64,000 bases of DNA from Xestospongia bergquistia. Its lineage: Eukaryota > Porifera > Demospongiae > Haplosclerida > Petrosiidae. The DNA lies in contig OZ014413.1 in NCBI GenBank assembly GCA_963965975.1, positions 9,326,101 through 9,390,100 on the forward strand. Direction: 5' to 3'. The position numbers were made by a program, and so were the translations under genes. The notes under the pieces were generated by a model. It ran no database searches. It was not told where the DNA came from and saw only the letters and a program-made list of their open reading frames with translations. Positions within the stretch are counted from its first letter, which is position 1; each line of letters starts with the position of its first letter. This document shows, in pieces, positions 2,332 to 63,055 of this stretch.

Positions 2332-3329
<998 letters not shown>

Positions 3330-29900: not shown

Positions 29901-31948
29901 CTAATACTTTAGTGTATTATACAACCTCTATATTGAGGACACTTGTTCTAGTCCCATACTAATACTTTAGTGTATTATACAACCTCTATATTGAGGACAC
30001 TTGTTCTAGTCCCATACTAATACATATTATTATAACCAAAGCTTCTAATATCAACAAGAAAGAGGAGTTTTTTACACAATGAACAGATCAAACAAGACTT
30101 TATCTGTTTTTTTTATTCATTCCCTCCAAGTGTCCACTACAAGTCCATGTTATTATAAGCAAAGCCTCTAATATCAACAAGAGAGAGGAGTTTTTAATGC
30201 AATAAACAGATTAAACATGACTTTATCTGTTATTCCTTACCATTCCCCCCTCCCTCAACAAGACATAGCAATAACTATATTATGAAATACAATAACAGAT
30301 ATTATAATGATGGTAGAATAATGTCTTACATTAACAAAGCTGAATCAAGACAAATGACATATGTACTTCACTAATCCCATTATAACAGTCATTTGTTATT
30401 ATGCACACACGAGAATTCATTGCAAAAAATTTTAACCCTTCTAAAACTAAACTAAACATTTAGTCTCATCCCTGGCCAGCTTTTTTAAAAAGATGTTATG
30501 AAACAAAACTGTAATTAGTCTCATTCCCAGTCCCAGGAGATTTGTGGGTATGAGGATAAGACTAAATTTTATTTGAATTGAGGTTTTTGCATACAAGAAG
30601 TCATAGCTAACAACAATGTGACGCTTGACAAGTTAATATTTGAAGACGTATGAATTGGTTGAAAGGACGGCTACAAAAAATTGAGTGAATTTCCAAAAAT
30701 TGATAAATAACAAAAAACAAAGCATAACAAATAGTTCATAAATTAAATATACCTGGCTATTTTGTGAGCAAGACAACAACAATGGAATCAACCAATCCAT
30801 TGTACATGTGACTGTCACATGATCTATGGTACATGTGTAAATGTCACATGATCTACAATACATAATTGTCACGTGATCTATGATACACGTGTGTAAATGT
30901 TACATGATCTACGATACATGTAATTGTCACATGATCTATGGTACACATGCGTAAATGTCACATGATCTACGAAACATGTAATTGTCATACGATTTGCAGT
31001 ACATGTACATGTCAAACGATCCCACCAACAGACAATAATAAACAAAATGTCTACCACAAAACACAGCATGTACAAATGACTTACCAGCTGGAGGTGTGGC
31101 TAGATACATTTTTAATTCTTCATCGCTAAAACCAGTTTTAGGATAAACATTGACCACGCCTATGCTCTCCAGTTGGGACTGCAAATGAATGGACAAATAG
31201 AGAGAATACATTAATCAACAAATAGATGAATAACATAAAGTAGGAAATTTTTTCCGAGGGTTTTAACTTAGTGAATTTGCCTATTTTTACAAACCATTAA
31301 TTAAACATTTCAAAATTAATATTTACAAACATTGTTAAATTTAAGAAATGGTAAAATTTAAACAGCTGGAGAGTAAAGATTTCTTTTAAAGCAATTTACC
31401 AAATACATCCTCACATTAATTAATCCACTATATTCAGTAAATGGATTAATGGATTAATTAAATGGATTAATAGACTAATTAAATTAATTAATAGACTAAT
31501 TAAATGGATTAATGGACTAATTAAATGGATTAATAGACTAATTAAATGGATAATGGCTGTATCTTGTAAGTATTGTTATTAAGTGGTCAATTTGGAAGGA
31601 GAAATTGGACAAATTTCTATAAAAATCAAGGTTTGGGTAAAATGTTGTATTAACAATACAAAATAAACTTAACAAGTTATAAATTTACAAATATTCGCCA
31701 AAAATAGTCAAATTTAACCCTCTTTAAATACTTCTCTCAACAACCTACATGCACATTATCTCAGAGAGAATTTAAGATTATATAATTACATATATATAAT
31801 TACATGTATATACCTTTCTCGTAGGATTCTGTAAGTGAACAAAAGTATTAGTAGACAATACTCTTCTCATGCTTCCTAATGTTGATTGTTCTAAGATATA
31901 AAGGGTCACCTCTGAACTAAAGAAGAGATATAATATAGTCTATTATCA

Positions 31949-39470: not shown

Positions 39471-42190
39471 TGAAGAAAATGATTTTAGGTCATTCAAGCA
39501 TATATGGACATCATAACGGCAACGAGGGACAGGGGTCAACTCCCTTCTGGAAGTGGAGATAAAGAAAGAGGTGAGGCTTCATTTTATCTCTCTTCATTAG
39601 GTGTAAGATCTTCAGGTACTTCTAATATTAATTTCTCAATTAATGTACACTGATCTTGTGAAGGGGCAATGTCCTGATATTTGGCAGTTTGTTAAGCCTT
39701 TGTGACTGATAATATATATTATATAATTATTATATCGAAAACCTGTTTGACTGGTATTTTTAACTTTGTGCTTATAACTTAAATTTACCTGGTTTCTCTT
39801 GATGTACTACATTTTTACATTGGACTTTTTTTAAAAGCTTAAACTTATGCCACAACTTCTTATAAAATTGAGACATAAAATCATGAATTTCCATTTCTGT
39901 ATTAACTGTTATATAGACAGTTAGGTTGACCCTATATAATTAGCTAATTATAGCTACAACAAGGTAAGTTGAAAGCCATTGGCTTAAGAAAGTTATCCAA
40001 AGCTGGAGCACTTGAGGAACTAAAGGAGCTGTTATAAATTTAGATAATGAAGAAGAGTGTTTAGTTAATAATTTTTATTTTTTTAAGCCCCTATAAAATT
40101 AAAATAGGATAAAAATTATTATAATTAGTAGTGTTGTTCTAGTTTGCTTAAGTAGGGCTAGTTTTATTCTTGGCCATTAAAAGTTACAGTATTTTAGTAG
40201 TATTAATTTCTTTAGCAGTCTCATCGATGCTATAGTAATCATGTTCATAGGTGTCATTAGCTCACTGACGCTGGTAATCACAAACTAGCCTTAATGATAT
40301 TCATAGGCGACAAACAGCGCGCCCCACAAGACCATGAAGACAAAATCTGCAGTACATATAAAAGGAAATGAAAACCACCTTGGATAGGTTGTGTTGTGGG
40401 CCAGCGTTCTGCAATGCATCAGACCTCTGAGATGGTTACCAGCATACTCTACGGAGTATCCGAAAGGCCGACTAGGATAGGGCTGGTAGTCTCCCTTTAA
40501 ACGAGAAGAGGCTGGTGTATTTGTGGTTCCCGGTTCCTGAATGCGACATTCCCTAAGAGCTGGAATCCCGTACGGCTGGTTTTAAGTTAGGGCGATGCTC
40601 CAGCCAGGATTACCTCGCGAAGACGAGGGTTACCAAGCCAGGTGGCGGTCCCAGCTAGCAATAGCAGGGAATCCTGGAGCCTAAGTGGAAGCCTGAGTGG
40701 GTGAGCGAGTAGGAATCGTTTGGGCAACACAACATGTTTTTTTTTTTATTTAATAAATCTTAACTTTATTATTTAAACTACGAGAATGTCAGCCAATCCA
40801 AAGTAAAGTTAATGTTGTAGCTAAAAGTCAAAAATTAAAGGACATATTGGAAGTTCCTTTAATTTCAGTTCAACATAACACTAACTATATAATAGATATT
40901 TGGTGACAACATCCATGATGTCTCACTGACTGAAGATCTTCTCCTTGTGCTATCATTACAACATTGTCAATATTATAGTTTTCAATGGATCCTGGATAAT
41001 AAGTTCCACCATTGAGTCAGTAAGCTTGTTTGGAATAAGAAAACATATCTTTTTTTAAATGTAATAGAAATATGTTTATAATACTTCAGAACATTTTCAA
41101 CTTTTGATGTTTAATTTTACAATATTAATTGATCAATTTTTAGAATTACTTTGCATTTGTCTAAATTGTAATAACTGTTTATTTGCCCTTTATCCACTTG
41201 AATTGTGGCTAAGATATTAAAGCTACTTTTTCTCTTATATCTTCCTGTAATCCATATCAACTAAATTGCAAAACCAGCAGTCACACTCTACACTCTCAAA
41301 ACATAAATCAAAGATTGTCTTTTGCATTTACTTTGGCCTGTACTAGTGTACTCACAGTTGCTCACACCTACTGCAATATCAACTGTGCCTTATTTCAAGT
41401 ACAGGGTATATTGTAGAACTATTGCCTCATTGTTCTATTGTATTTCTGAGTCTGCATCAGCATTTTTCCAACCATTTTCAACAATTATAAACAGCAATAG
41501 ATTGAACAGTTGCATATTAATATATACATTACAAATAAGCAAAACTACCCTATGTATGTAGGAGACAGCTATCATAGAGTATAGAGTACTAGCTCTATGG
41601 ACTCAGATCTGCCAGTGTTAGCTTTAAAATTCTATATTTTAAATGTATCAATCATTTCGTGCATCCATTTTGGTTCTAATTAAAGTTTGTTGACAAACTT
41701 TACATTTCGTAAATGTTAGCCATTAATGAAAATTGTAGATTTGCCATTAAGACATGTTATTGTTTTAAATGTGAATCTACTGCTCATAGTATATACCATT
41801 ATGTGTTTACTATACAGAGAGTAAGTTCTTTGATTTGGAGAGTGACATCCATTATACATTCTTTCTGATCTGTATGTATCCCATCCAGTTTCTTGATATC
41901 TTGTACAAGTAGTTGGAGGTAAACAATACTCTATACTCTATACTAGTAACAGTTTGAGATAGTTTACTCACTATAGCCAGCTCCCTAGTACAGTCTGACT
42001 TGTTGAAGTTCACTATGAAATAGTTAACAGTCTTTCCTCATTGTCCCTGTTGATTGATTGTTACTGTTATGTCATGCATATACATATTTTTTATCTTTAT
42101 TCCTATAATTTCAGTCTCATGTCTAGTATAAGAACATGGGCATGTGTCTAGGGATAGTGTATGGTCATGCCCATTCAGGGTTTTAATCTG
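39458..42190. repeat. Segmental duplication, copy 1
   Basis: Collinear with 52284-55063, with differences every 20-40 bases and a few indels (for example about 60 bp extra in copy 2 near 54043). It holds the GC-richer core at 40260-40740; otherwise it is AT-rich with no gene recognised. Similarity stops sharply at 42190 and resumes at 44224. Confidence 0.93.
40260..40740. other. GC-richer conserved core element, copy 1 (unknown: structured RNA gene or repeat element)
   Basis: About 480 bp, clearly GC-richer than its surroundings, ending in a T run followed by TTTAATAAA. I compared it base by base with 53083-53563 and found no difference and no gap (constant offset 12823), while the flanks differ by several percent. 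It has obvious hairpin potential: ATACTC-TACG-GAGTAT, CTCG-CGAAGA-CGAG, and GCTCCAG..AGGATT pairing with AATCCTGGAGC about 80 bases on. No long reading frame is open. It is not recognisable to me as rRNA, tRNA, SRP RNA or a named repeat. The T-rich end could be the complement of a retroelement poly(A) tail, which would make the element point to the - strand. Confidence 0.6.
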
Positions 42191-42454
42191 GAGATTTGGG
42201 ATGGAGTGGGTATATGTAAGGTTGTGCACAGAGAACACTATTTTGTTTGGCCAACCCCTTTTTACCTAGTTAGATGTTTGTTTATTGTAGCAGTGACAGT
42301 AGCATATATTTTGAGTCAAAATTAATGTTGTAATAATGGGAGTGGCTCACTACTGGCTATACATAGTACAGACTTATAATGCATAACCAAAACAGAAACC
42401 CAACCCAACTGGAAATATCTCACTCATGCTCAATTCTTAAAGTAAAAAATTAAG

Positions 42455-42525
42455 TAAAAACGAAAAAAAGAATTGGAATTAGAATGTTCACCCTCAGCTT
42501 CCATACTTAACGTTTAAGTGTTTGG
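42455..42525. mobile_element. Fragment related to the foldback element at 50188
   Basis: GAATTGGAATTAGAATGTTC and, after a few bases, CAGCTTCCATA match the right arm of the 50188-50412 element (GAATTGGAATTAGAAT...CGGCTTCCGTA). No left arm is seen, so it is probably a remnant. Confidence 0.5.
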
Positions 42526-42788
42526 GTGGGGTCTAGTAACAGTATAAAGGTATTCCGTACAGTCAATTACCACATGAAAGCCTCTATTATTGCAATATTA
42601 TTTTTGACACAAACTGTGTGCCATCTTTTATGTCTAATGTTATCTATATCATAAAGTCCAGTATTAAAGTAGTGTTGGATAAAGCAATTATGATGACATC
42701 ATCGTGTGTCTACCACGTGTTTGGAAATACACCAATTTCTAATGTTTTTATGGAGTGCTCTTGGGAAGGAAACATACCCTAGACTCCA

Positions 42789-42805
42789 CCCCCCCCCCCC
42801 CCCCC
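42789..42805. repeat. Poly-C run of 17
   Basis: Uninterrupted C run inside the copy-1-only stretch. Confidence 0.9.
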
Positions 42806-43334
42806 AGATAAACCATGCCTTTTGATATACTGTGTATTTATTACAACATACCTACTATTTCTGACACATTCCTCTTTAATAGATATTAAATTGTTTTGCT
42901 TTCTAAAGAGAGAGATAGAGTTAAAGAATTAAAGGGAGGAATAGGTAATATGTATGTATATATAATAATTTATTACATGTACAAATTGAGACACCAATAA
43001 GAGTTTTTCACTCCTAATGAATCTATTTGATTAGTATGACTGGAACTGTTATTAGTGTGAGATGAATGCATTATTTCCTTAAGAAGGTTTGAGACAGATG
43101 GACAAACAGAGAGACTGAGAGACAAACAGACAGACATACAGAGAAGTATAATTGTATAAGTACCTTCCAACTTCTTAAAATGACTTCATATATTATTAAT
43201 GATATATTATTAGCAATAGAACTAGGATTATGATGATGATGATGTCTGAGGAGTTTCTAGAGTTGAAGATCACTCTGTTCCATAGTGAATAAATCTTGAC
43301 AGCAAGTGAATAGTCACTATACAATATATAATTA

Positions 43335-43336
<2 letters not shown>

Positions 43337-43394
<58 letters not shown>
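43337..43394. repeat. (AT)n microsatellite
   Basis: About 29 AT dinucleotides. Confidence 0.95.
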
Positions 43395-43395
<1 letters not shown>

Positions 43396-44458
43396 ATATA
43401 ATTAACAAAATATGTGACAACTCTGTATACTATAAATCATCTATAATATTTGCATTTAGTACTAGAAGAACATTACTTAACACTACCATTTACATGTATA
43501 AATACTTAAGAGGACCCCTTTAATTAGGGCTATTAATTATTTTGCATAGCTTCTCTGTATATAATGTCTAGCCATAACTTTTGTTTTGTATTCTCATTTC
43601 ATTTCTTACTTTGTTATTCATACTACCTAGTAATCCTAAATATGCTCTTTACCTTTTTGACTGTATAAAAGTTGTCTACGTTAACTATTATAATATAGTT
43701 AATGACTTTCTTCATAATTAATTAAACATATATAATCTTACATTTCTCTTTGATTTGTTTCATTCTGATGCTTTGGTGCCTATATAGAAATAAGATTGAT
43801 TATTGACAATATTACAGTATGCTATTAATTCAACTGATAATGTAAGGTAAAGATACCTGTTTTTTATTAATAGTAGACAAGATAAATGGGAACAGAAATA
43901 GGAACAAAGGTTACTAACAAATAACACGAATCAACAGCAGGGCTCGTGGAAGTATAGTCTATACAGGCTCTACGAACTTTCGTTTAATGACTTTCGTTTT
44001 TCCTCATGAAATGATTATAACTCATAGATGTCGTCTCTTAGTCTAGCCAGCTAGATAGTCTTGATAGGATGAGTAGATGATTCATTGATTATTATTATAT
44101 TCATCTATATATTATGACGTCATTGTACTGGTAGTACTGGTAGTATAATTATATTTATTGATGTAATAGTCAATGTTTTTTAAATAGTACACTCAAAAGA
44201 CACACTAACGATATAATTGATGTAAGTATTTATTATATATCTCTTCTTCTATCATTTAATGTTTACCAGTCAGAAAGGCCATTATCAAGTCTATATAGCA
44301 ATTGCAGTATTATAATCAATAAAATCGTGTCCTATCATTAGCGTGATGTTGTTGTATATAGAAACCTTTTATACAATATTACAATATATATAATGTAATA
44401 GTTTTATCATTCGTATATAAGAAAACATGCAATAAACATTTGTTTCTTATATTATATA

Positions 44459-44464
44459 TTTATT
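44459..44464 (-). terminator. Candidate polyadenylation signal, ankyrin gene 1
   Basis: AATAAA on the - strand, 115 bp after the stop at 44579. The equivalent flank of ankyrin gene 2 has the same context. Confidence 0.35.
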
Positions 44465-44989
44465 TTATGCATTGATGTCAGATAGATATAATTAAAAGCC
44501 TAATATTATACTATTTTTGTGATAATTATTATTTTGTGATTTTTCCAAACACATAACAAAACATGTTAATAATAACAACTATTTATTCTTTGTTGTAACA
44601 TGATCTTTTGTTTGCATCTTTTTCGACTTCTTTCTTAAAATACGTAATGGTAGCTGAATCAATGTAGAGTGATGTTGAAGTTGTGCCTGTTGTAAAATTG
44701 TTGATTTGTTATCTCTGATCTCCTTCTTCTTAGTATCTTTAAAAGTATGAAATGGTTCTTTAATAGATTTTATTAAACGATTTTGAAAAGATTGCTTTAG
44801 AGATGAGGAGTGGATAGTCAAGTGTGGAAGAACATCTTGTTCAACTACAGACTCTGTTGTCTTTATATTTTGTAGTTGTTTATTAGGTTCTTCTGTCTGT
44901 TGATCAGGTATTAAAATAGCAGAGTTTGTACTTTCTATTGGTTGGTTTATTGATTGATCTAATTCTTTACAAGAACTACTACTAGGATC

Positions 44990-47900
44990 AATGTACTTTT
45001 CTAATAAATGAGCTATTTCAATATGACCATTCTGACTAGCAATTGTTGATGCTGTCCAACCACATTGTGTTTGAAGACTAGGATCAGCATTTTCTTTGAG
45101 AAGAAGCTCAACAACTTGGTAATGACCATTTTGACTGGTAACAATTAAAGCAGTCCAGCCACCTAGTGTTTGAATGTTAGGATCAGCTTTTTCTTTGAGA
45201 AGAAGCTCGACAACTTGGTAATGGCCATTCTCACTTGCATGTGTCAAAGCAGTTGAATTTTCTTTTGTTTGAAGATTAAGATCAGCATTTTCTTTAAGAA
45301 GAAACTCAACGACTTCATAATGGCCATTTTGACTGCCAAACATTAAAGCAGTCCAACCATCTTGGTCTTGAAAATTAGGGTCAGCATTTTCTTTGAGAAG
45401 ATCCTCAACAACTTGGTAATGACCATTCTGACTTGCAAACATTAGAGCAGTCACACCATCTAGATCTTGAAGATTAGGATCAGCATTTTCTTTGAGAAGA
45501 AGCTCAACAACCTGATAATGGCCATTCTGACTTGCAAACATTAGAGCAGTCACACCATCTAGATCTTGAAGATTAGGATCAGCATTTTCTTTGAGAAGAA
45601 GCTCAACAACCTGATAATGGCCATTCTGACTTGCAAACATTAGAGCAGTCACACCATCTAGATCTCGAAGATTAGGATCAGCATTTTCTTTGAGAAGAAG
45701 CTCAACAACTTGGTTATGGCCATTCTGACCAGCAAACATTAGAGCAGTTACACCATATTGATTTTGAACATTAGGATCAGCATTTTCTTTGAGAAGTAGC
45801 TCAATGAGTTCATGATAGCCATTCTGACAGGCAAACATTAAATTTGTCTCACCATGTTGGTCTTTAAGATTATGATCAGCATTTTCTTTAAGAAGAAGCT
45901 CAAAGACTTGGTAATGGCCATTCTGATTAGCAAACATTAAAGCAGTCCAACCATCTTGATCTTGAAGATTAGGATCAGTATTTTTTTGGAGAAGAAGCTC
46001 AATGACTTGGGTATGGCCATTCTGACTAGCAAACATTAAAGCAGTCATACCATCTTCATCTTGAAGATTAGGATCAGCATTTTCTTTAAGAAGAAGCTCA
46101 ATGACTTGGGTATGGCCATTCTGACTGGCAAGCATTAAAGCAGTCCAACCTTCTTGTGATTCAAGATGAGGATCAGCACTTTCTTTAAGAAGAAGATCAA
46201 CAATTTGGTAATGACCATTCTGACTGGCAAACATTAAAGCAGTCCAACCATCTTGTGTTTGAAGATTAGGATCAGCATTTTCTTTCAGAAGAAGCTCGAC
46301 AACTTCATAATGGTCATTCTCACTTGCATACATCAATGCAGTCCAACCTTCCTGAGTTTGAAGATTATGATTAGCATTTACTTTGAAAAGAAGCTCAATG
46401 ACTTGATAATGACCATTATCACTGGCAAACATTAAAGCAGTTGAACCTTTCTGTGTTTGAAGATTAGGATCAGCTTTTTCTTTTAGAAGAAGCTCTACAA
46501 CTGGGTGATGACCATTCTTACTAGCAAACATTATAGCAGTCCAACCATCTTGTTTTTGAAGATTAGGGTCAGCACTTTCTTTGAGAAGAAGTTCAATGAC
46601 TTGGTAATGGCTATTCTCACTGGCAAACATTAAAGCAGTCATACCATCTTGGGCTTGAAAATGAGGATTAGCATTTTCTTTGAGAAGAAGCTCAACAACT
46701 CTGTAATGGCCATTCAGACTGGCAAACATTAAACTAGTCATACCATCTTCTCTTTGAAGATTAGGATCAGCATTTTCTTTGAGAAGAAGCTGAACTAATC
46801 GGTAATAACCATTTTGACTAGCAAACATTAAAGCAGTCACACCATCTTGTGTATGAAGGTTAGGATCGGCATTTTCTTTGAGAAGAAGCTCTATGATTTG
46901 GTAGTGGCCATTCTCACTAGCAAACATTAAAGCAGTCCAACCATCTTGGTCTTGAAGGTTAGGATCAGCACTTTCTTTGAGAAGAATCTCTACAACCTGG
47001 TAATGGCCATTCTCACTGGCAAACATTAAAGCAGTCACACTATCTTGTTCCTGAAGATTAGGATCAGCACTTTCTTTGAGAAGAAGCTCAACAACTTGGT
47101 AATGACCATTCTGACTAGCAAACATTAAAGCAGTCCAACCTTCTTGGTCTTCAAAATTAGGATCAGATTTTCCTTTGAGAAGAAGCTCAATGACTTGATA
47201 ATGACCATTATCACTGGCAAACATTAAAGCACTTGAACCTTTCTGTGTTTGAAGATTAGCATTAGCATTTTCTTTAAGAAGAAGCTCAACCACTTGATAG
47301 TGACCATTCTGACTGGCAAACATTAAAGCAGTCCACCCATCTTGTCGTTGAAGGTTAGGGTCAGCACCTTCTTTGAGAAGAAGCTCAACGACATGGTAAT
47401 GGCCATTCTTACTAGCAAACATTAAAGCAGTCCAACCAATTTGTGTTTGAAGATTTAAATCACTATTTCTACTGAGAAGAAGCTCAACAATTTGGTAATG
47501 GCCATTATCACTGGCAAACATTAAAGCAGTCGATCCTTTTTGTGTTTGACTATTAGGATCAGCTTTTTCCTTGAGAAGAAGCTCAACTACTTCGAAATTT
47601 CCATTATCACTGGCAAACATTAAAGCAGTTGAACCTGTCTGTGTTTGAAGATTAGGATCAGCCCTTTTTTTGAGAAGAAGCTCAACAATTTGGTAATGGC
47701 CATTATCACTGGCAAACATTAAAGCAGTCGATCCTTTTTGTGTTTGATGATTAGGATCAGCTTTTTCCTTGAGAAGAAGCTCAACTACTTCGAAATTTCC
47801 ATTATCACTGGCAAACATTAAAGCAGTTGAACCTGTCTGTGTTTGAAGATTAGGATCAGCCCTTTTTTTGAGAAGAAGCTCAATGACTTGCAAATGATCA

Positions 47901-48750
47901 TTCTGACTGGCAAACATTAAAGCAGTCCAACCATCTTGTCTTTGAAGGTTAGGATTAGCATTTTCTTCGAGAAGAAGTTCAATGACTTGGTAATGGCCAT
48001 TATCACTGGCAAACATTAAAGCAGTCACGCCATCTTGTCTTTGAAGATTAGGATCAGCTATTTTTTGGAGAATATGCTCAATGACTAGGTAATGACCATT
48101 CTGACTTGCAAACATTAAAGCAGTCCAACCATCTTGCCTTTGAAGATTAGGATCAGCATTTTCTCTGAGAATAAGCTAAACAACTTCATAATGACCATTC
48201 TGACTGGCAAACATTACAGCAGTCCAACCATCTTGTGTTTGAAGATGAGGATCAGCGTTTCTTTTGAGAAGAAGCTCAACAACTTGATAATAACCATTCT
48301 GACTGGCAAAAATTAAAGCAGTCCAATCTTCTTGGTCCTGAAGATTTGGATCAGATTTTTCTTTAAGTAGAAGCTCAACAACTTGATAATGACCATTCAG
48401 ACTGGCAAACATTAAAGCAGTCACACCATCTTGTGTTTGAATATTAGGATCAACATTTTCTTTGAGAAGAAGCTCTACCACTTGGTAATGGCCATTCTCA
48501 CTGGCAAATATTAATGCAGTCCAACCTTCTTTTGTTTGTAGGTGAGGATCAGCTTTTTTATTGAGAAGGAGCTTAACAACTTGGTAATGGCCATTTAGAC
48601 TGGCAAACATTAAAGCACTTACACCACCTCGTTTTCAAAGATTAGGATCAGCATTTTCTTTGAGAAGACACTCAAGGACTTGGTAATGGCCATTGTGACT
48701 GGCAAATATTAGTGCTGTTCCTCCTTCTTCATTCTGGTAGTCAACATTGG
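44990..48750 (-). repeat. 99-bp coding repeat array (ankyrin units)
   Basis: About 39 units of 99 bp (33 codons). Several neighbours are nearly identical in DNA, such as three at about 45420-45710. A 198-bp double unit occurs twice at about 47480-47880. The array therefore behaves like a coding minisatellite, and most frames on the opposite strand are its shadows. Confidence 0.9.
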
Positions 48751-50043
48751 CTCCTAACTCCAGTAGTATTGTAACAACATTATCATTACCAGCTTGTGCT
48801 GCTTGAAGTAGTGATTGTTCAAAGTTTAATGTTATATCCTCTTCTTTTATTAAGATAGGTTGTTCGTTTATTATTATTTTGAAAATACCAACTTGATACA
48901 TGAACTCTCTTTTCTCAGATGCCATTTGTAAGAGAAGTTGTGATTGTGAGCGAGGTATTAAAAAACTAACACAAATACATCCTTGTTTGATATAAATGTG
49001 ACTAAAAACATTGTCCATCATAGGAAAAAGATAATTTATAAGCTTACGAAAAATGTCTAATGTCATTCTCCCACATCTTCTTTGTAATTTGATCTCTACT
49101 TTGCAAGTTGTTTCAGTGATTTCATGATTTGGTATCAGTGCTTCTTCAATAGCACTCTGGATGTGTTGTAGTTCAGATGATTTATCAAATACTTCAAGTT
49201 CTTCTAAATACTTGGCAAATTCAGTTTGTAGGTCACTTTCAGGAAGGAATGTATTAACAATGCTCTCTATTAATTCACAGTTACTAAGGAAGCAGTAGTA
49301 AGGCTCTATTTCAACAAACAATTCATCAATGGTTGTAACTTCAATCAATTTGTCCAGTTCCTTTTCTTCAGATAGCCAGGGTAGTAATTTAATATGTCTT
49401 GCTATGTCAATTAATTTACATTTATTACTTTTTATCATCTCTTCAAGATGACTTACAATTTTACATACTAAAGATGTAAATTTGTCTACAAGTCTTTTCA
49501 GCTCTGTTGCAACTTGATCTTTAGAACTAATTTCTATTATTTTCTTGTTCATTTTGATGTGTTCATCTGCTACTGTAGCACTGGATTGATTGTCATCTTT
49601 TTTTAGTGCACTATCAAATAATTTAACATCTTTACTGTCTGTACCTAAATAATACAGATGAAGACACTTATATCTTACACACAGCACTTACCTTGATAGT
49701 GATCTACTGGTGATATGGTGGTAATAAGGTTTTCTTGTACTTTTGAGACTAGATAGTGTTCATTAGCTTTTGATAGGGCAACAATTACTTTATCCCAGGT
49801 AGCATCAGGGTCAACTTTGAGCCATTCTGAGAAGAGAGCTAATTTTCGAAGATCAGTTGATGAGTAATCATTTTCAATCTTCTTTATCATTGCAGATGAC
49901 ATTTTTGGTAGAAAAATAGCAAATTTTTGCCACTCTACTAATGGCTCAAGTAGTTCCGTTAGTTCAGACTCAGTAGGTCTGTTAGACAGTCTAGAACTAT
50001 CTACTGGTAGAGTAGTAGTACATCTTGTAGGATTATCAGACAT
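48635..50043 (-). CDS. Translatable part of ankyrin gene 1: Death domain, unassigned domain and one to two ankyrin repeats (453 aa)
   Basis: Joining 49692-50043 to 48635-49644 (phase 1, intron only 47 bp) gives 453 aa up to the first in-frame TGA. Residues about 30-105 form a six-helix Death domain: LLEPLVEWQKFAIFLP, then MIKKIENDY, then LRKLALFSEWL and the typical TWDKVIVAL near the end. Death domains mediate homotypic protein contacts in signalling. The next roughly 240 residues (from MNKKIIEISS to IIINEQPIL) are nearly identical to gene 2; I do not recognise the fold. It would be a soluble cytoplasmic protein; no signal peptide or membrane segment is seen. Confidence 0.6.
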
Positions 50044-50187
50044 ATTGGGGAACACTAATATAGCTATAGCCCTAGCTTCTTGATAAAAATGAAACGCCTT
50101 TAAAATATCCTTTTATGGTCATCATTATAAATAACTTCTACGGTATTCTAAAATTAGAAGGTACTATCTGTTACTAGCATGAGGAAT

Positions 50188-50412
50188 GTATGGAAGCCGA
50201 CTGTGGACATTCCAATTCCAATTCTACTTTCCATCGCTCAATGATGTCTTCGAAGCGACATGTTTCCAGTTACGGTGGGGATATAGGATTTTAGTTGTTA
50301 AATATTCCATTGAAGGATAGAAAATAGAATTGGAATTAGAATTTTTTGGAAAAATTTCAAAGCAGATTATAAAATTACGAAACAAAATTAGGTGCTCGCC
50401 TTCGGCTTCCGT
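50188..50412. mobile_element. Foldback/MITE-like element of about 225 bp with AGGAAT target duplication
   Basis: The ends carry inverted repeats: TATGGAAGCCGA at the left and TCGGCTTCCGTA at the right, plus an inner pair around CCAATTCCAATTCTA and TAGAATTGGAATT. AGGAAT flanks both sides (50182-50187 and 50413-50418). The paralogous flanks of ankyrin gene 2 (near 58497, and near 58896 in a duplicate) have a single copy of this site and no insert. No transposase frame is present, so it is non-autonomous. Superfamily not assigned. Confidence 0.72.
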
Positions 50413-50418
50413 AGGAAT

Positions 50419-50998
50419 AACATACATGCCAATAGTGGTGTACTTTTGTTATTACAACACTAGCCACATAAGGCAACCTTTAATATTAAAACTATGTTGG
50501 GAAAATATATTAGTGATAAAGATGATTCTAAAAATACAATAATAAATTCAGTATATTATATTTATACAATACTATAATATATTTGCCACTTGTCCACCTT
50601 TTTATCTGTACCTTCATTCAACTATATATCCATTATTCTTTTATCCACCTCTGTCTATATATATACCTGTTTGTTTGATTGCCTGTGTATTTTAACTCTA
50701 TATTTCTCAACCATTTACTAATTACTTGTTTGTTCTGTTTAATTATCCTATTGTTCATCCAGTGATGTCATTGTGTTAGTAGTATATATTGCAGTTAATT
50801 TATAAACTAATTATTTCATAACAATGTCATAATGTAGTCTATTTTATTATTGCTTCATTTATATTCTCTATAGTGAGAGAATTACTATAAGTTAAGTAAT
50901 TTACAACACTTAAAATGGAATAATCATTTTGAGATTGCTTGTCAAATCTTCTTGCTAAAGTCTGTCCATTTAATGTTCTATCTATCCATTAATTATAG
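50419..50998. other. Intergenic, ankyrin gene 1 upstream flank
   Basis: AT-rich. Parts resemble the flank at about 59560-60000 (for example AGCCACATAAGGCAACCTTT against AGCCACATAAGACAGCCTTT), marking the same position in another duplication unit. No gene seen. Confidence 0.5.
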
Positions 50999-51441
50999 GG
51001 TGATCAATCTATAACTAAAGAAGTACGTCTTGTACTTCAGAGAACTTCAGAGAAAGTGAAAGATTGTTATCATCAATATCATCAGATCAACCATTACCTT
51101 CTATAACTCCTAATGAATTAACAACTACTCGATATACTAGTGATATTATGAAAACTAAAGAGAAGAAAATAAAGTATGTTCATCCATTGCACTATTGATA
51201 CATCCATTGTAAATATCTATATGTCCATTGTATACCTTTATGTGTCCATTTTTTTCTCAATAGAAAGAAACACAAAAAGTAGAAAAACAAAAATAAAAAG
51301 AAGACAAAAGAGAGACATATTTCAAAGAGACACAAATATGATATCAGATCAGACACAACCTGACAAGAGACAAAGAAGACATTACTACAAATGTAGTCAT
51401 TCACATCATTAATCTGATATCTGATAAGTGACAGTGACTGA
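50999..51441 (+). pseudogene. Duplicated MMTAG2 3' end (exons 7 and 8 with intron)
   Basis: Matches MMTAG2 exon 7 (here 50999-51173), its intron and exon 8 (51264-51441), including the splice sites. Because the intron is retained, it arose from DNA duplication, not retroposition. It is dead: exon 7 has a one-base insertion after ACTTCAGAGA, exon 8 has an early in-frame TAG after CACAAAAAG, and part of the RHHY/HH region is deleted. No 5' exons are nearby. Confidence 0.9.
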
Positions 51442-51507
51442 GTATCATCAATACATCTCATTGTCCACACAATATCCAAATGTTGATTACATTGTATTCT
51501 AATCTTT

Positions 51508-51611
51508 GTCTTCGCGAGGTAATCCTGGCTGGAGCATCGCCCTAACTTAAAACCAGCCGTACGGGATTCCAGCTCTTAGGGAATGTCGCATTCAGGAACC
51601 GGGAACCACAA
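51508..51611 (-). repeat. Inverted 104-bp piece of the GC-richer core element
   Basis: Exact reverse complement of 40521-40624 (and of 53344-53447) with no mismatch found by eye. Unlike the two full copies, it lies outside the duplicated block and in opposite orientation, so it is an independent insertion or rearrangement. Confidence 0.88.
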
Positions 51612-51761
51612 CAGTGTATATTATTCTTTATAATTATAGTATATAAGCTTGAGGTAGTGTCCAAATTAAACATATTACGTATCTCTAATATTAACACCTT
51701 ATTACATTAGATCATTACTTACATACAAAACAAATTTGATAAGTATTAATATTAAACATAC

Positions 51762-52000
51762 CTGATATATCTATCATATGCACTTGATGATTGTATCTGT
51801 TGATCAGAGTTAGTGGTACTAGATTCTACAAACATTAATAAATAAATGTTAAGCAAAACAGACATGATAACCAACCTACCTTTCTTTGTAATATAAACAT
51901 CATCTTCAGGCAGACATTGTATCTCTTCCTCTCTAATTATGTCACACCTGTAGTAGATTTGATTGATTACTTTCATAAGATCTGGACAATCCACATTCAA
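51762..52000 (-). CDS. Two putative orphan exons of an unrecognised gene
   Basis: Exon 51880-52000 (acceptor AG just right of it, donor GTAGGT) and exon 51762-51825 (acceptor TTTGTAG, donor GTATGT) are separated by a 54-bp intron and join in phase: LNVDCPDLMKVINQIYYRCD, then the acidic REEEIQCLPEDD, YITKK, then a Ser/Gln-rich ESSTTNSDQQIQSSS. Intron size matches the ankyrin genes. The residues resemble no family I know. They could be upstream or alternative exons for ankyrin gene 1, or leftovers of a deleted gene. No start or end exon was found. Confidence 0.35.
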
Positions 52001-52283
52001 CTGTATTATATTATATATATTTTTTATGTATATTATGTATTCTCACTAGTAGTAGTTATTTAATTACATGGCATGGCCATGTAATTATTATTATAACAGT
52101 AATAATAACAAAACTTACCATCATTGTCCAATGACCTATTAGGTGTATTACCCAATAACAGTAGTCTTCAAACATTCATTCTCTAGGTCGAGAGGATATA
52201 GTCTATGTACAAAATCCAAACAATTAAAAATTATTAAATTGTAAACTTACCAAAGGATTACGGCCAGTAAAAATGCTAAATTG

Positions 52284-55063
52284 ATATGGTCAGTCTGAAG
52301 AAAATGATTTTAGGTCATTCAAATATATATGGACATCATAACGACAATAAAGGACAGGGGTCAACTCCCTTCTGGAAGTGGAGATAAAGAAAGAGGTGAG
52401 GCTTCATTTTATCTCTCTTCATTAGGTGTAAGATCTTCAGGTACTTCTAATATTAATTTCTCAATTAATGTACACTGATCTTGTGAAGGGACAATGTCCT
52501 GATATTTGATAGTTTGTTAAGCCTTTGTGACTGATAATATATATTATATAATTATTATATTGAAAACCTGTTTGACTGGTATTTTTAACTTTGTGCTTAT
52601 AACTTATATTTACATGGCTTCTCTTGATGTACTACATTTTTACATTGGACTTTTTTTAAAAGCTTAAACTTATGCCATCACTTCTTATAAAATTGAGACA
52701 TAAAATCATGAATTTCCATTTTTGTATTAACTGTTATATAGACAGTTAGGTTGACCCTATATAATTAGCTAATTATAGCTACAACAAGGTAAGTCGAAAG
52801 CCATTGGCTTAAGAAAGTTATCCAAAGCACTTGAGGAACTAAAGGAGCTGTTATAAATTTAGATAATGAAGAAGAGTGTTTAGGTAATAATTTTTATTTT
52901 TTTAAGCCCCTATAAAATTAAAATAATTATGATAAAAATTATTATAATTAGTAGTGTTGTTCTAGTTGCTTAAATAGGGCTAGTTTTATTCTTGGCTATT
53001 AAAAGTTACAGTATTTTAGTAGTATTAATTTTTTTTAGCAGTCTCATCGATGCTATCGTAATCATGTTCATAGATGTCGTTCGCTCACTGACGCTGGTAA
53101 TCACAAACTAGCCTTAATGATATTCATAGGCGACAAACAGCGCGCCCCACAAGACCATGAAGACAAAATCTGCAGTACATATAAAAGGAAATGAAAACCA
53201 CCTTGGATAGGTTGTGTTGTGGGCCAGCGTTCTGCAATGCATCAGACCTCTGAGATGGTTACCAGCATACTCTACGGAGTATCCGAAAGGCCGACTAGGA
53301 TAGGGCTGGTAGTCTCCCTTTAAACGAGAAGAGGCTGGTGTATTTGTGGTTCCCGGTTCCTGAATGCGACATTCCCTAAGAGCTGGAATCCCGTACGGCT
53401 GGTTTTAAGTTAGGGCGATGCTCCAGCCAGGATTACCTCGCGAAGACGAGGGTTACCAAGCCAGGTGGCGGTCCCAGCTAGCAATAGCAGGGAATCCTGG
53501 AGCCTAAGTGGAAGCCTGAGTGGGTGAGCGAGTAGGAATCGTTTGGGCAACACAACATGTTTTTTTTATTTTTTTAATAAATCTTAACTTTATTATTTAA
53601 ACTACGAGAATGTCAGCCAATCCAAAGTAAAGTAAATGTTGTTGCTAAAAGTCAAAATTAAAGGACATATTGGAAGTTCCTTTAATTTCAGTTCAACATA
53701 ACACTAACTATATAATAAATATTTGGTGACAACATCCATAATGTCTCACTGACTGAAGATCTTCTTGTGCTATCATTACAACACTGTCAATATTATAGTT
53801 TTCAACAGATCCTGGATAATAAGTTCCACCATTGAGTCAGTAAGCTTGTTTGGAATAACAAAACATATCCTTTTTAAATGTAATAGAAATATGTTTATAA
53901 TACTTCAGAACATTTTCAACTTTTGATGTTTAATTTTACAATATTAATTGATCAATTTTTAGAATTACTTTGCATTTGTCTAAATTGTAATAACTGTTTA
54001 TTTGCCACTTGAATTGTGGATAAGATATTAAAGCTACTTTTTCTCTAACCAGGATAATATAGATTGTGTGTAAAATAGCAACATTATTCTATATTTCTGA
54101 ATATCTTCCAATAATCCATATCAACTAAATTGCAAAACCAGCAGTCACACTCTACACTCTCAAAACATAAATCAAAGATTGTCTTTTGCATTAACTTTGG
54201 CCTGTACTAGTGTACTCACAGTTGCTCACACCTACTGCAATATCAACTGTGCCTCATTTCAAGCACAGGGTATATTGTAGAACTATTGCCTCATTGTTCT
54301 ATTGTATTTCTGAGTCTGCATGAGCATTTTTCCAACCATTTTCAGCAATTATAAACAACAATAGATTGAACAGTTGCATATTAATATATACATTACAAAT
54401 AAGTGAAACTAGCCTATGTATGTAGGAGACAGCTATCATAGAGTATAGAGTACTAGCTCAATGGACTCAGATCTGCCAGCGTTAGCTTTAAAATTCTATA
54501 TTTTAAATGTATCAATCATTTCATGCATCCATTTTGGTTCTAATTAAAGTTTGTTGAAAAACTTTACATTTCGTAAATGTTAGCCATTAATGAAAATTGT
54601 AGATTTGTCATTCAGACATGTTATTGTTTTAAATGTGAATCTACTGCTCATAGTATATACCATTATGTGTCATTTAGTTTTACTATACAGAGAGTAAGCT
54701 CTTTGATTTGGAGAGTGACACCCATTATACATTCTTTCTGATCTGTATGTATCCCATCCAGTTTCTTGATATCCTGTACAAGTAGTTGGAGGCAAACAAT
54801 ACTCTATACTCTATACTAGTAAAAGTTTGAGATAATTAACTCACTATAGCCAGCTCTCTAGTACAGTCTGACTTGTTGAAGTTCACTATCAAATAGTTAA
54901 CAGTCTTTCCTCGTTGTCTCTGTTGATTGATTGTTACTGTTATGTCATGCATATAGATATTTTTTATCTTTATTTCTATAATTTCAGTCCCATGTCTAGT
55001 ATAAGAACATGGACATGTGTCTAGGGATAGTGTATGGTCATGCCCATTCAGGGTTTTAATCTG
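52284..55063. repeat. Segmental duplication, copy 2
   Basis: Collinear with 39458-42190 at high but imperfect identity. It holds the second full GC-richer core. A roughly 60-bp stretch near 54043-54110 is specific to this copy. Similarity to copy 1 then jumps to 44224 onward, leading straight into the 3' flank of the ankyrin gene. No gene recognised. Confidence 0.93.
53083..53563. other. GC-richer conserved core element, copy 2 (unknown: structured RNA gene or repeat element)
   Basis: Base-for-base the same as 40260-40740 in my reading. The boundaries of identity are sharp: the 60 bp before it carry about six differences between copies, and the T run after it differs in length. It shares the hairpins described for copy 1. 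With the inverted piece at 51508-51611 it could form a 104-bp duplex if both lay in one transcript. Confidence 0.6.
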
Positions 55064-55467: not shown

Positions 55468-58387
55468 TTATTTGTTTACAATATTCTTTTTTGTAACATT
55501 ATCTTTTCTTTGTGTCTTCTTCAACTTCTTTCTTAAAATATGCAATGGTACCTGGATCAATGTAGAGTTATGTTGTTGAAGTTGTGTCTGTTCCAAAATT
55601 GTCAATTTGTCATTTCTGTTCTCTTTCTTCTTTGTATCTTTAAAAGTATGAAATGGTTGTTTAATAGATTTTATTAAATGATATTGGAAAGACTGCTTTA
55701 GTGATGAGGAGTGGATAGTTGAGTGTGGAAGGACATCTTGTTCAACTACAGACTCTGTTGTCTTTATATTTTGTAGTTGTTTATTAGGTTCTTCTGTCTG
55801 TTGATCAGGTATTAAAATATCAGAGCTGGTAATTTCTATTGGTTGGTTTATTGAATGGTCTAATTCTTTACAAGAACTACTACTGGGATCAATGTACTTT
55901 TCTAATAAATGAGCTATTTCAAGATGATCATTCTGACTAGCAACTGTTGATGCTGTCCAACATTCTTGGTCTTGAAGATTAGGATCAGCATTTTCTTTGA
56001 GAAGAAGCTCAACAACTCGATAATGGCCATTCTGACTGGCAAACATTAAAGCAGTCCAACCATTTTGTGCTTGAAGATTGGGATCAGCATTTTCTTTAAG
56101 AAGAAGCTCAACAACTTGGTGATCACCAATATGACTGGCAAAAATTAAGGCAGTCCAACCTTCTTGGTCCTGAAGATTTGGATCAGCTTTTTCTTTGAGA
56201 AGAAGCTCGATGACTTGGTAATGGCCATTCACACTTGCGAATGTCAATGCAGTTGAACCTTTTTGTGTTTGAAGATTAGGATCTGCATTTTGTTTAAGAA
56301 GAAACTCAACAACTTGGTAATGGCCATCCAGACTGGCAAACATTAAAGCAGTCAAACCATTATGATCCTGAAGATTAGGATTAGCACTTTCTTTGAGAAG
56401 AAGGTCAACGACTCGGTAATGACCATTCACACTTGCAAAAATTAATGAAGTCCAACCTTCTTGTGTTTGAATATTAGGATCAGCAATTGCTTTGAGAAGA
56501 AGCTCAACAACTTGGTAATGGCCATTTCCACTTGCAAATATTAATGAAGTCCAACCTTCTTGTGTTTGAATATTAGGATCAGCATTTTCTTTATTGAGAA
56601 GAAGCTCAACAACTTGGTAATGGCCATTTCCACTTGCAAATATTAATGCAGTCAAACCTTCTAGTGTTTGAAGACTGGGATCAGTGTTTTCTTGGAGAAG
56701 AAGCTGAACAACTTGGTAATGACCATTCTTACTGGCAAACATTAAAGCAGTCCAACCTTCTTGGTCTTGAAGATTAAGATCAGCATTTTCTTTAAGTAGA
56801 AGCTCAACAACTTGGTAATGGTCGTTCTGACTTGCAAACATTAGTGCTGTTCCTCCCCCTTTATTCTGGTAGTCAATATTGGCTCCTAACTCCAGTAGTA
56901 TTGTAACAATATTATTATCACCAGCTTTTGCTGCTTGAAGTAGTGATTGTTCAAAGGTAAATGTTACATCCTCTTCTTCCATTAAGATGGGTTGCTCATT
57001 TATTATTATTTTGAAAATACCAACTTGATGCATAAACTCTGTTTTTTCAGTAGCCAGTTGTATGAGAAGTTGTGATTGTGAGCGAGGTGCAAGAAAACTA
57101 ACACAAATACATCCTTGTTTGATGTAAATATGACTAAAAACATTGTCCATCATAGGAAAAAGGTAATTTATAAGCTTACGAAAAATGTCTAATGTCATTC
57201 TCCCACATCTTCTTTGTAATTTGATCTCTACTTTGCAAGTCGTCTCAGTAATTTCATGATTTGGTATCAGTGCTTCTTCAATAGCACTCTGGATGTGTTG
57301 TAGTTCAGACGATTTATCAAATACTTCAAGTTCTTCCAAATACTTGGCAAATTCAGTTTGTAGGTCACTTTCAGGGAGGAATGTATTAACAATGCTCTCT
57401 ATTAATTCACAGTTACTAAGAAAGCAGTAGTAAGGCTCTATTTCAACAAACAATTCATCAATGGTTGTAACTTCAATCAATTTGTCCAGTTCCTTTTCTT
57501 CAGATAGCCAGGGTAGTAATTTAATATGTCTTGCTATGTCAATTAATTTACATTTATTAATTTTTACCATCTCTTCAAGATGACTTAACATTTTACATAC
57601 TAAAGATGTAAATTTGTCTACAAGTCTTTTCAGCTCTGTTGCAACTTGATCTTTAGAACTAATTTCTATTATTTTCTTGTTCATTTTGATGTGTTCATCT
57701 GCTACTGTAGCACTGGATTGATTGTCATCTTTTTTCAGTGCACTATCAATTAATTTAACATCTTTACTGTGTGTACCTAAATAATACAGATAACGACGCT
57801 CATAACCATCTTTAATAAATCCAATGCACTCACCTTGATTGGAATCTACTGGTTTTATTTCAGTTTCACTATGGCTCCCTAGGGTTTGACAATGCTGTGC
57901 TGAATGAATATTGCCTTGTTTGTGTTGTTTACTTTCTTTATCATCAGTTTCAGTTAATGTGTCATCTTGATTGTATGTACCTACAACAGAATAAGATACT
58001 CATATAAATATATCTTTTCATCATTATACTCTCACCTTGATAGTAATCTACTGGTGGTATGGTAGTAATAAGGTTTTCTTGTACTTTTGAGACTAGATAG
58101 TGTTCATTAGCTTTTGATAGGGCAACAATTACTTTAGCCCAGGTAGCATAAGAGTCAACTCTGAGCCACTTTGAGAAGAGAGCTAATTTTCGAAGATCAG
58201 TTGATGAGTAATCATTTTCAATCTTCTTTATCATTGTAGATGATATCTTTGGTAGAAAAATAGCAAATTTTTGCCACTCTACTAATGGTTCAAGTAGTTC
58301 CATTAGTTCAGACTCAGTAGGTCTGTTAGACAGTCTAGGACTATCTACTGGTAGAGTAGTAGTACATCTTGTAGGATTGTCAGACAT
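55468..58387 (-). CDS. Death-domain/ankyrin protein 2, 3 exons, 935 aa, intact
   Basis: Exons 58036-58387, 57834-57980 and 55468-57776; both junctions are phase 1 and the introns are 55 and 57 bp. Residues about 30-105 are a Death domain (LLEPLVEWQKFAIFLP, MIKKIENDY, TWAKVIVAL). Exon 2 adds a 49-residue polar linker. Residues about 208-432 are a conserved alpha/beta region (KLLPWLSEEKELDKLIEV, RKLINYLFPMMDNVFSHIYI, GIFKIIINEQPI) that I cannot assign. From about 440 come roughly 11 ankyrin repeats. One has an extra Asn (LLLNKENADPN, a 3-bp insertion). A capping repeat (LLEKYIDPSSSS), an acidic linker and a Lys-rich C-terminus follow. No nucleotide-binding, protease or membrane domain is seen. 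Death-domain plus ankyrin architecture suggests an intracellular scaffold or receptor, possibly immune; partners are unknown. Confidence 0.9.
57834..57980 (-). other. Symmetric 147-bp cassette exon of ankyrin gene 2
   Basis: Phase 1-1, so inclusion or loss keeps the frame. It encodes a polar linker ending KPVDSNQ. Its 3' end resembles the end of exon 1 (CCAGTAGATTxCxATCAAG before the donor), and it is missing from gene 1. Confidence 0.75.
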
Positions 58388-62610: not shown

Positions 62611-63055
62611 TATGATCATTACATCTCACTATCTATAAAGCATAAAATTATTGATTACACTATATTCTATATATTTTGTTAACAATACTCTCATTATGTA
62701 CTGTAGTTAAAAATAAACAGTAAAACAGTGACTGAGTATCTTATGTATTCTAGTAAACTCAAGACACATAAGATAGAACTGATGTAAATTTTATCATATA
62801 TCATATAATATTGTCCATAGCAATTGCAAATGTATAGGAAATAATATCATGTTCTATCATCAATATCATGACGTTTTATTTAGAAACCTAACATTATATT
62901 ACAGTACAATGCAATATAATTTATTACATGCCAAAAAGTAATTTTTATAAAATGACGTTTTTCTTTGCATTGATGGAAGACAGATATAATTAACAATCAT
63001 AACATTATACATTGGCTTTTACCAAACACATAACAACACATATTAACAATAACAA
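62611..63055. other. 3' flank of ankyrin gene 3
   Basis: Resembles the flanks after the other ankyrin genes (ATTGCAAATGT, ATCATGTTCTATCAT, CAAACACATAACAACACAT). No gene. Confidence 0.6.

Follow-up and report, generated by a model that had tools for sequence, protein, structure and literature searches.

What keeps a core of some 480 bp identical in two copies of a duplication whose surroundings have drifted apart? The question arises in a window of 64,000 nt (the whole stretch of DNA that was analysed) from contig OZ014413.1 of the sponge Xestospongia bergquistia, where a sequence-only reading noticed a gapless, GC-richer core within diverged duplicates. Pairwise comparison of the two cores bears this out, with 481 of 481 positions the same and zero gaps, as against 70 differences in 2231 aligned flanking positions (3.1%; 26 of 794 on the left and 44 of 1437 on the right) and a further 88 gap columns. 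The concern that the core might be no more conserved than its flanks is thereby removed. At the flank rate, 15.1 differences would be expected per 481 bp, in line with the 15–20 estimated earlier, and the probability of finding none is 2.2e-7. The longest identical run in the duplicate alignment covers 485 columns, the next longest 139. GC content is 53% over 40387–40740 and 31% in the 800 bp upstream of the core, and the difference in T-run length that had been remarked on is real.

Each core is very probably a complete type-3 Pol III gene of a structured RNA, kept uniform by selection together with gene conversion. It divides into about 125 bp of promoter, followed by a unit of about 352 nt that ends in a T-run (Table 1).

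Table 1. Features of the two cores and their predicted RNA, in window coordinates.
Feature	Position	Strand	Basis or remark
Core, copy 1: putative promoter and RNA gene	40260..40740	+	Identical to copy 2; recurs genome-wide
Core, copy 2: putative promoter and RNA gene	53083..53563	+	Identical to copy 1
Upstream element TGATATTCAT	40295..40304 (copy 2: +12823)	+	Similar motifs upstream of other RNA genes
Proximal sequence element (PSE-like) block CCCCACAAG...CAAAATCTGCAGTA	40322..40355	+	Match to U6/RNase P promoters
TATA box TATAAAA	40357..40363	+	In 69/70 copies
Predicted transcribed RNA body, copy 1 (start within a base or two)	40387..40736	+	
Predicted transcribed RNA body, copy 2	53210..53559	+	As copy 1, offset 12823
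Terminal helix, 5' strand GUUGUGUUG	40388..40396	+	Pairs with 40725–40733 in MFE and alifold
Long 5' arm, UNCG apical loop at 40450–40453	40409..40526	+	Fold and loop variants
Four-way-junction (cloverleaf-like) domain; GCAA loop 40658–40661, CGAAGA/UUCG hairpin loop 40618–40623	40604..40678	+	
Terminal helix, 3' strand CAACACAAC	40725..40733	+	Pairs with 40388–40396
T-run, presumed Pol III terminator, copy 1	40737..40747	+	Sequence
T-run, presumed Pol III terminator, copy 2	53560..53567	+	Sequence
112-bp fragment of core RNA, 97% identical	51500..51611	-	Sequence match

The promoter resembles those of known RNA genes in the same genome. By eye, TGATATTCA is also found upstream of a U6 gene (L030) and of RNase P RNA genes (L031–L033), and TATTCAT upstream of U2 genes. 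A scan for the upstream-element motif matched 36 of 70 copies, every one at 63 bp from the TATA box; many of the 34 that it missed carry one-letter variants, again judged by eye. When the PSE-like block and TATA box were compared, ungapped and at the same TATA distance, with two U6 promoters and one of RNase P, 27 of 42 positions agreed for U6b, 22 for RNase P and 20 for U6a, the best of 163 background TATAAAA sites reaching 19, 20 and 18 of 42, respectively. A T-run of at least five lies near the RNA end in 70 of 70 copies, although one of them (L074) has a TTT first. A PSE-like element at fixed spacing from a TATA box, with a terminal T-run, looks like a Pol III type-3 gene, putatively transcribed by that polymerase. 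The snRNA-type proximal element and TATA box (40295–40363) would drive transcription from about 40387, a start placed there because both U6 genes have a TATA-to-gene distance of 29 nt and because the zone of lowest variation has its edge at that point. Transcription would end at the T-run at 40737, giving an RNA of about 352 nt.

A search of the whole genome for the core, advised by the sequence-only reading, finds hundreds of copies. An internal 31-mer has 289 matches at up to three mismatches (reversed control, 0), a promoter 31-mer has 242 and a 3'-end 24-mer 202 (controls, 0). They fall on nine contigs (C1–C8 and C12) among the matches listed, and on C3–C7 are concentrated towards the contig ends. 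That reading had supposed that few copies would mark a gene and hundreds a repeat, a distinction that fails to discriminate here, where gene-like copies number in the hundreds.

In 106 full copies, chosen by exact or top-scoring matches and so enriched for intact ones, the RNA body has 0–2.0% non-consensus letters per 20-bp bin, apart from one bin that reaches 4.4% in subfamily II, as compared to 7–35% in bins outside the core block. One identical RNA is common to 17 of the 106. The copies form two subfamilies (I, with 65 copies, and II, with 41) whose consensus sequences differ at two positions inside the RNA, and 14 polymorphic sites, representing about ten separate changes, are common to both, including one dinucleotide change and one loop replacement. 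Conservation stops at the T-run and rises at the predicted start, most clearly in subfamily II, with the promoter blocks kept separately: per bin, variation in the PSE-like block is 6–10% in subfamily II and 1–4% in subfamily I, whose promoter is nearly as conserved as its RNA, which blurs the upstream edge in that subfamily.

Many full copies have diverged flank homology over hundreds of base pairs on both sides, some on the right side only, and on the left it ends at differing places. There are also partial copies, some 94–100% identical (two, L019 and L070, being 5'-truncated and 100% identical) and some down to 75–91%. Both copies in the window adjoin ankyrin-repeat genes, but a specific link to these is unsupported: only two of 20 fetched loci of 5–9.5 kb (L012 and L021) have a tblastn match to the window's ankyrin-repeat genes, and the remainder have other reading frames beside the RNA copies, the neighbours being of many kinds.

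The earlier remark on hairpin potential holds for two domains of the RNA, which fold better than shuffled sequences. The 5' arm (40405–40530) gives z -2.95, with none of 200 shuffles as stable, and 0.15 on the opposite strand; the cloverleaf-like domain (40600–40682) gives z -3.53, with one of 200 as stable, and -1.94 on the opposite strand (7/200). The stretch between them (40530–40600) is no better than shuffles (z 0.49), and methods disagree on its structure. Taken whole, the 364-nt sequence outdoes its shuffles only weakly (z -1.57; 6 of 100 shuffles are as stable), with an MFE of -131.3 kcal/mol on the + strand vs -102.3 on the - strand.

Variation among copies bears on the same point. 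The loop of the 5' arm is UACG in 97 of 106 copies and UUCG in the other 9, and in 11 of 106 an extended hairpin of UUCG type, UCUUCGGA, takes the place of the CGAAGA loop. In the terminal helix, U40389-A40732 becomes G-C in about 40 of the 106 copies (subfamily II), the sole both-sided change, and the neighboring outermost pair (40388–40733) is lost in those copies. The UACG/UUCG swaps and the double change look RNA-like. Pairing is kept by 16 of 35 substitutions vs 13.0 expected when the structure is taken from one sequence, a marginal result (p 0.05), and by 18 of 29 vs 12.6 (p 0.0002) when the structure is fitted to the same data. When 42 distinct RNAs are set against the single-sequence structure, 45 cells are broken, 23 consistent and 7 compensatory; against the fitted structure, the counts are 10, 24 and 7.

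The RNA would close on itself by an end-to-end helix and have a long arm in hairpin form, a cloverleaf-like domain, and UNCG and GNRA tetraloops, features to be expected of an RNA that scaffolds an abundant RNA-protein particle, one perhaps needed at high dosage. The approximately 290 loci, in two subfamilies, would have spread mainly by duplication of larger DNA segments, and the family would owe its uniformity to selection on most copies and to exchange of sequence by gene conversion.

Searches for a known identity gave little. Rfam has no match in the whole window at the gathering threshold, and at E up to 10 only two chance-level matches in 40200–40800 (Qrr, E 5.3; RUF1, E 9.6). Covariance models of RNase P, MRP, SRP, U2 and U6 match elsewhere in the genome and none matches at the core. 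ARAGORN (bacterial code) predicts no tRNA gene in the window, and stops in each of the three + strand reading frames across the RNA speak against a protein. Telomerase RNA was set aside, weakly, when a search of the RNA for CCCTAA/CTAAC turned up one CCCTAA without a longer template. An invariant 20-mer of the RNA has no exact match in the genome_contigs and viral_contigs collections, and a literature search found no description of such an RNA in the titles and abstract openings of the top-ranked papers, which is weak evidence of absence. Since it matches no family searched, this may be an abundant structured RNA that has not been described before.

Of the three explanations that the sequence-only reading had offered, selection on a structured RNA is best supported, by promoter, terminator, conservation profile and structure-compatible variants; conversion seems to contribute, given the 14 shared sites; and a young mobile element is disfavored. 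A recently spread selfish Pol III unit, SINE-like or other, whose copies are alike from youth and not from function, would fit hundreds of copies on nine contigs and the truncated pieces, some of them perfectly identical. The promoter, however, lies outside the transcript, U6-like, upstream and common to the copies, where a SINE would have an internal one; the copies read have no fixed left end; the tail is a T-run and not an A-tail; and neither tetraloop swaps nor a double change would be expected in a parasite. Because external promoter and flank homology are carried along, the copies were apparently moved as DNA segments and not as retrocopies, and their diverged flanks suggest that they are old, so that youth fails to explain the uniform RNA. 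I consider such an element quite unlikely. It seems highly improbable, too, that conversion alone maintains the identity, with no selection on a product. The polymorphisms common to both subfamilies do point to exchange, and some partial copies are nearly or wholly identical as well, but others have decayed, the edges of conservation fall at the T-run and the predicted start with the promoter blocks conserved apart, and some of the variants are compatible with pairing or with an exchange of loops (marginally so in statistical terms on the single-sequence structure). The chance that one core was pasted from the other in assembly is practically nil: its sole support is the identity itself, and the same stretch recurs at many loci, each with its own flanks, while in the window the 3.1% divergence directly adjoins the core.

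A different proposal is that the RNA is a highly derived 7SK (RF00100), the scaffold of HEXIM and P-TEFb, amplified in this genome. Size class, type-3 promoter and closed end-to-end helix all fit, and HEXIM is encoded in the genome (114 bits, C15), with a basic stretch in its ORF, seen by eye. A search of the genome with the Rfam model gives one match, on C8, of 14.2 bits (E 9.67; cut-off 35), and none in the core; an unrecognized 7SK is plausible because HEXIM is encoded yet no match exceeds the cut-off. The motif of the HEXIM site in 7SK is GAUC, however, and there is no GATC in 40387–40740. By reading, the stretch from the 3' strand of the terminal helix to the U-tail, the place expected for the 3' hairpin (M8), also contains no hairpin, and I know of no 7SK precedent for about 290 loci. 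Nor does HEXIM by itself prove a 7SK, since it is reported also from choanoflagellates and ichthyosporeans (PMC11482795). On balance, a derived 7SK is unlikely, and, with HEXIM encoded but no recognizable 7SK, the finding makes the question of HEXIM's RNA partner in such an animal directly testable.

The preferred reading, a type-3 Pol III gene family under selection, has partial parallels. The few animal families of this kind (U6, U6atac, RNase P, MRP, 7SK, Y, etc.) mostly have few working copies. U6 snRNA and RNase P RNA genes share with the core a PSE-like block and TATA box at matching spacing and a T-run after the RNA, but their covariance models do not match it, and its approximately 290 loci contrast with 3 strong matches for RNase P among the best candidates scored and 2 for U6 among the best 48. 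A structured RNA at so many loci, set against two for U6 among those 48, would imply a very abundant particle. Spliceosomal snRNA gene families, of which tandem U1/U2 are an example, likewise have many near-identical copies, concerted evolution and snRNA-type promoter elements; the core differs in its TATA-containing, Pol III-type promoter and in having no Rfam spliceosomal match. The family offers an example of RNA genes that are uniform genome-wide amid diverging surroundings.

More tentatively, it is possible that the cores represent a hitherto undescribed class of Pol III RNA in animals, an RNP scaffold of about 350 nt that is closed end to end, bears a cloverleaf and has no Rfam counterpart. 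Its near-identical genes would number in the hundreds, many of them lying towards contig ends and among clusters of duplicating genes on which the RNA or its transcription perhaps acts. RUF6 of Plasmodium falciparum invites comparison. Its promoter is gene-internal, its RNA shorter and its copies far fewer than here; the core, in contrast, has an external promoter, a longer RNA, many more copies and neighbors of many kinds. RUF6 is reported to be a Pol III-transcribed ncRNA family that acts on var genes, and it resembles the core RNA as a GC-rich Pol III family of many copies, those of the core likewise lying among duplicated genes and, on C3–C7, biased to contig ends.

By direct comparison, the two copies of the core in the window (40260–40740 and 53083–53563) agree at 481 of 481 positions, and the aligned duplicate flanks of both differ at 70 of 2231 positions (3.1%), with 88 gap columns besides. 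At the flank rate 15 differences are expected per core, and the probability of none is about 2e-7. The sequence-only reading had called the core identical in two diverged duplicates and had put the expected changes at 15–20; both statements stand. The core is most likely a gene for an undescribed structured RNA, a putative Pol III gene of high copy number with an external promoter.

The core is no local oddity but recurs genome-wide, as emerged from the whole-genome search that the earlier reading had proposed. In 146 Mb (21 contigs), an internal 31-mer (up to three mismatches) has 289 matches and its reversed control none. The core itself as query found at least 41 matches (40 of 427 candidates scored): 40 are 97–100% identical to it over most or all of its length, and the remaining match is a 32-bp piece. 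A promoter 31-mer has 242 matches and a 3'-end 24-mer 202 (controls 0), both patterns being biased by their letters to subfamily I, one of the two groups of copies; a 29-mer that includes the T variant of position 40507 matches perfectly at 217 places. Copies were taken from the window, 20 regions round core-query matches, 40 of 100 listed 31-mer places (all perfect matches) and 40 regions from the 29-mer list, giving a first sample of 70 (10 partial matches dropped) and a complete sample of 106 full-length copies (21 dropped). Choosing perfect or top-scoring matches over-represents intact copies, and the flanks of the same copies serve as internal control.

Features of the proposed RNA gene (first sample) and of the rest of the window
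Feature	Position	Observation
Upstream element TGATATTCAT	5' of RNA	36/70 copies match a TGATATTCAT-type motif as scanned
CCCCACAAG...CAAAATCTGCAGTA block	5' of RNA, promoter region	
TATA box TATAAAA	5' of RNA	69/70 copies
T-run, at least 5	Near end of gene	70/70 copies; at locus L074 only following a TTT
Tandem ankyrin-repeat genes	44579–49687 (−), 55468–57999 (−), 63017–64000	99-bp units, ~37 in one array; first and second resemble each other in an N-terminal part outside the ankyrin repeats; in-frame stops in the first (48635–48637, 48176–48178)
58-bp minisatellite	35–389, 23753–24087, 24732–25579, 29697–30023	Both orientations
Reading frame carrying homeodomain end	2874–3329 (+)	Pfam 20.2 bits, just under cut-off 22.9

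Related sequences lie upstream of both U6 genes and the RNase P RNA genes of the same genome and, partly, of its U2 genes. Of 42 positions in an ungapped alignment on TATAAAA, the core matches U6b at 27, U6a at 20 and RNase P at 22; the highest values among 163 other TATAAAA sites (from the window and 20 loci, copies of the RNA family filtered out) are 19, 18 and 20. Counted from the initial T of TATAAAA, the model match starts after 29 nt in both U6 genes and after 35 in RNase P. The U6 distance places the RNA start at 40386–40387, and the predicted transcript is about 352 nt long. On contig C5 (L031–L035) the genome has three RNase P RNA genes, near-identical and ~8.6 kb apart, with two further matches: L034, whose 5' part seems to have been replaced, and L035, short and below cut-off.

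Among the 106 copies (65 of subfamily I, 41 of subfamily II), variation per 20-bp bin within the RNA body is 0–1.6% in I and 0–2.0% in II, apart from 4.4% in one bin at a loop of II. It rises to 7–14% in the T-run bin and 17–34% past it. The promoter block (40322–40381) varies by 1–4% in I and 6–10% in II, and the bins upstream of it by 16–35%. Conservation thus ends abruptly downstream in both subfamilies; upstream it does so in II, whereas in I it fades gradually.

The stretch 40387–40740 is 53% GC and has stops in all three frames. The predicted folding energy is −131.3 kcal/mol for the plus strand and −102.3 for the minus strand. Compared with shuffles, the whole is only weakly unusual (z −1.57, 6/100 as stable). 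Two domains are clearly unusual: 40405–40530 (z −2.95, 0/200) and 40600–40682 (z −3.53, 1/200), the latter predicted to form a four-way junction that bears a GCAA loop. Neither 40530–40600 (z 0.49) nor the promoter (z 0.07) is unusually stable. The RNA ends are complementary, GUUGUGUUG pairing with CAACACAAC.

Inner positions 40507 and 40596 and both ends distinguish the consensus RNAs of the subfamilies; in the terminal helix of II, U40389–A40732 becomes G–C and the outer pair 40388–40733 is lost. The apical loop is UACG in 97/106 copies and UUCG in 9/106, and in 11/106 an extended UUCG-type hairpin replaces the CGAAGA hairpin loop. With this swapped loop omitted and each side of a pair counted singly, 35 distinct substitutions fall in pairs of the single-sequence structure, and 16 of them keep pairing (13.0 expected, p 0.05); 29 fall in pairs of the alignment-derived structure, which was fitted to the same data, and 18 of these keep pairing (12.6 expected, p 0.0002). 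Over 42 distinct RNAs, consistent, compensatory and broken cells number 23, 7 and 45 for the former structure and 24, 7 and 10 for the latter. These counts lend support to the terminal helix and the two domains, but to no fold of the entire RNA.

Three explanations had been offered for the identity of the core. Selection on a structured RNA is favored by the promoter, the T-run, the sharp downstream edge and the structure-compatible variants. Gene conversion gains from 14 polymorphic positions (~10 separate changes, among them a TT-to-GG change and the replaced loop) common to both subfamilies, which I read as its traces; most likely the two processes together keep the copies uniform. A young mobile element, in the form of a SINE, is disfavored, since the promoter lies upstream and many copies have flanks in common.

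Copies often stand in local series at few-kb spacing, adjoining reading frames of various kinds, an arrangement that copies carried along by larger duplications would show. Among the 100 of 217 29-mer matches listed, 88 lie on contigs C1–C7 (the 12 on C8, where the listing breaks off, were left out), and 59 of these fall within 10% of a contig end, contigs being not necessarily whole chromosomes. Clustered, 39 of 61 do so against 12.2 expected, a bias strong on C3–C7 (31/37 clusters) and weak on C1–C2 (8/24, p 0.09). By eye, C6 starts inside a copy (L134) and C7 in sequence resembling the upstream flank (L130), with five copies in its first 12.2 kb, suggesting arrays of the gene at contig ends. 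On C8 (L129, 7618300–7621300) lies an array of partial copies, ~80–96% identical, with promoter and 5' part and without the 3' half.

The earlier failure to match the core to a known RNA was borne out by Rfam, which gave nothing above chance in the window or core region. RNase P, MRP, SRP, U2 and U6 are rejected as its identity, the genes of each being found elsewhere in the genome. The 7SK model had no match above cut-off in the genome search, and the same genome encodes a HEXIM homologue (L089, C15:1731966–1732466; 114 bits, basic KHRR-type stretch), so that a strongly derived 7SK analogue is a minor possibility. The predicted core RNA is without two features of 7SK, the GAUC motif and a hairpin that follows the terminal helix.
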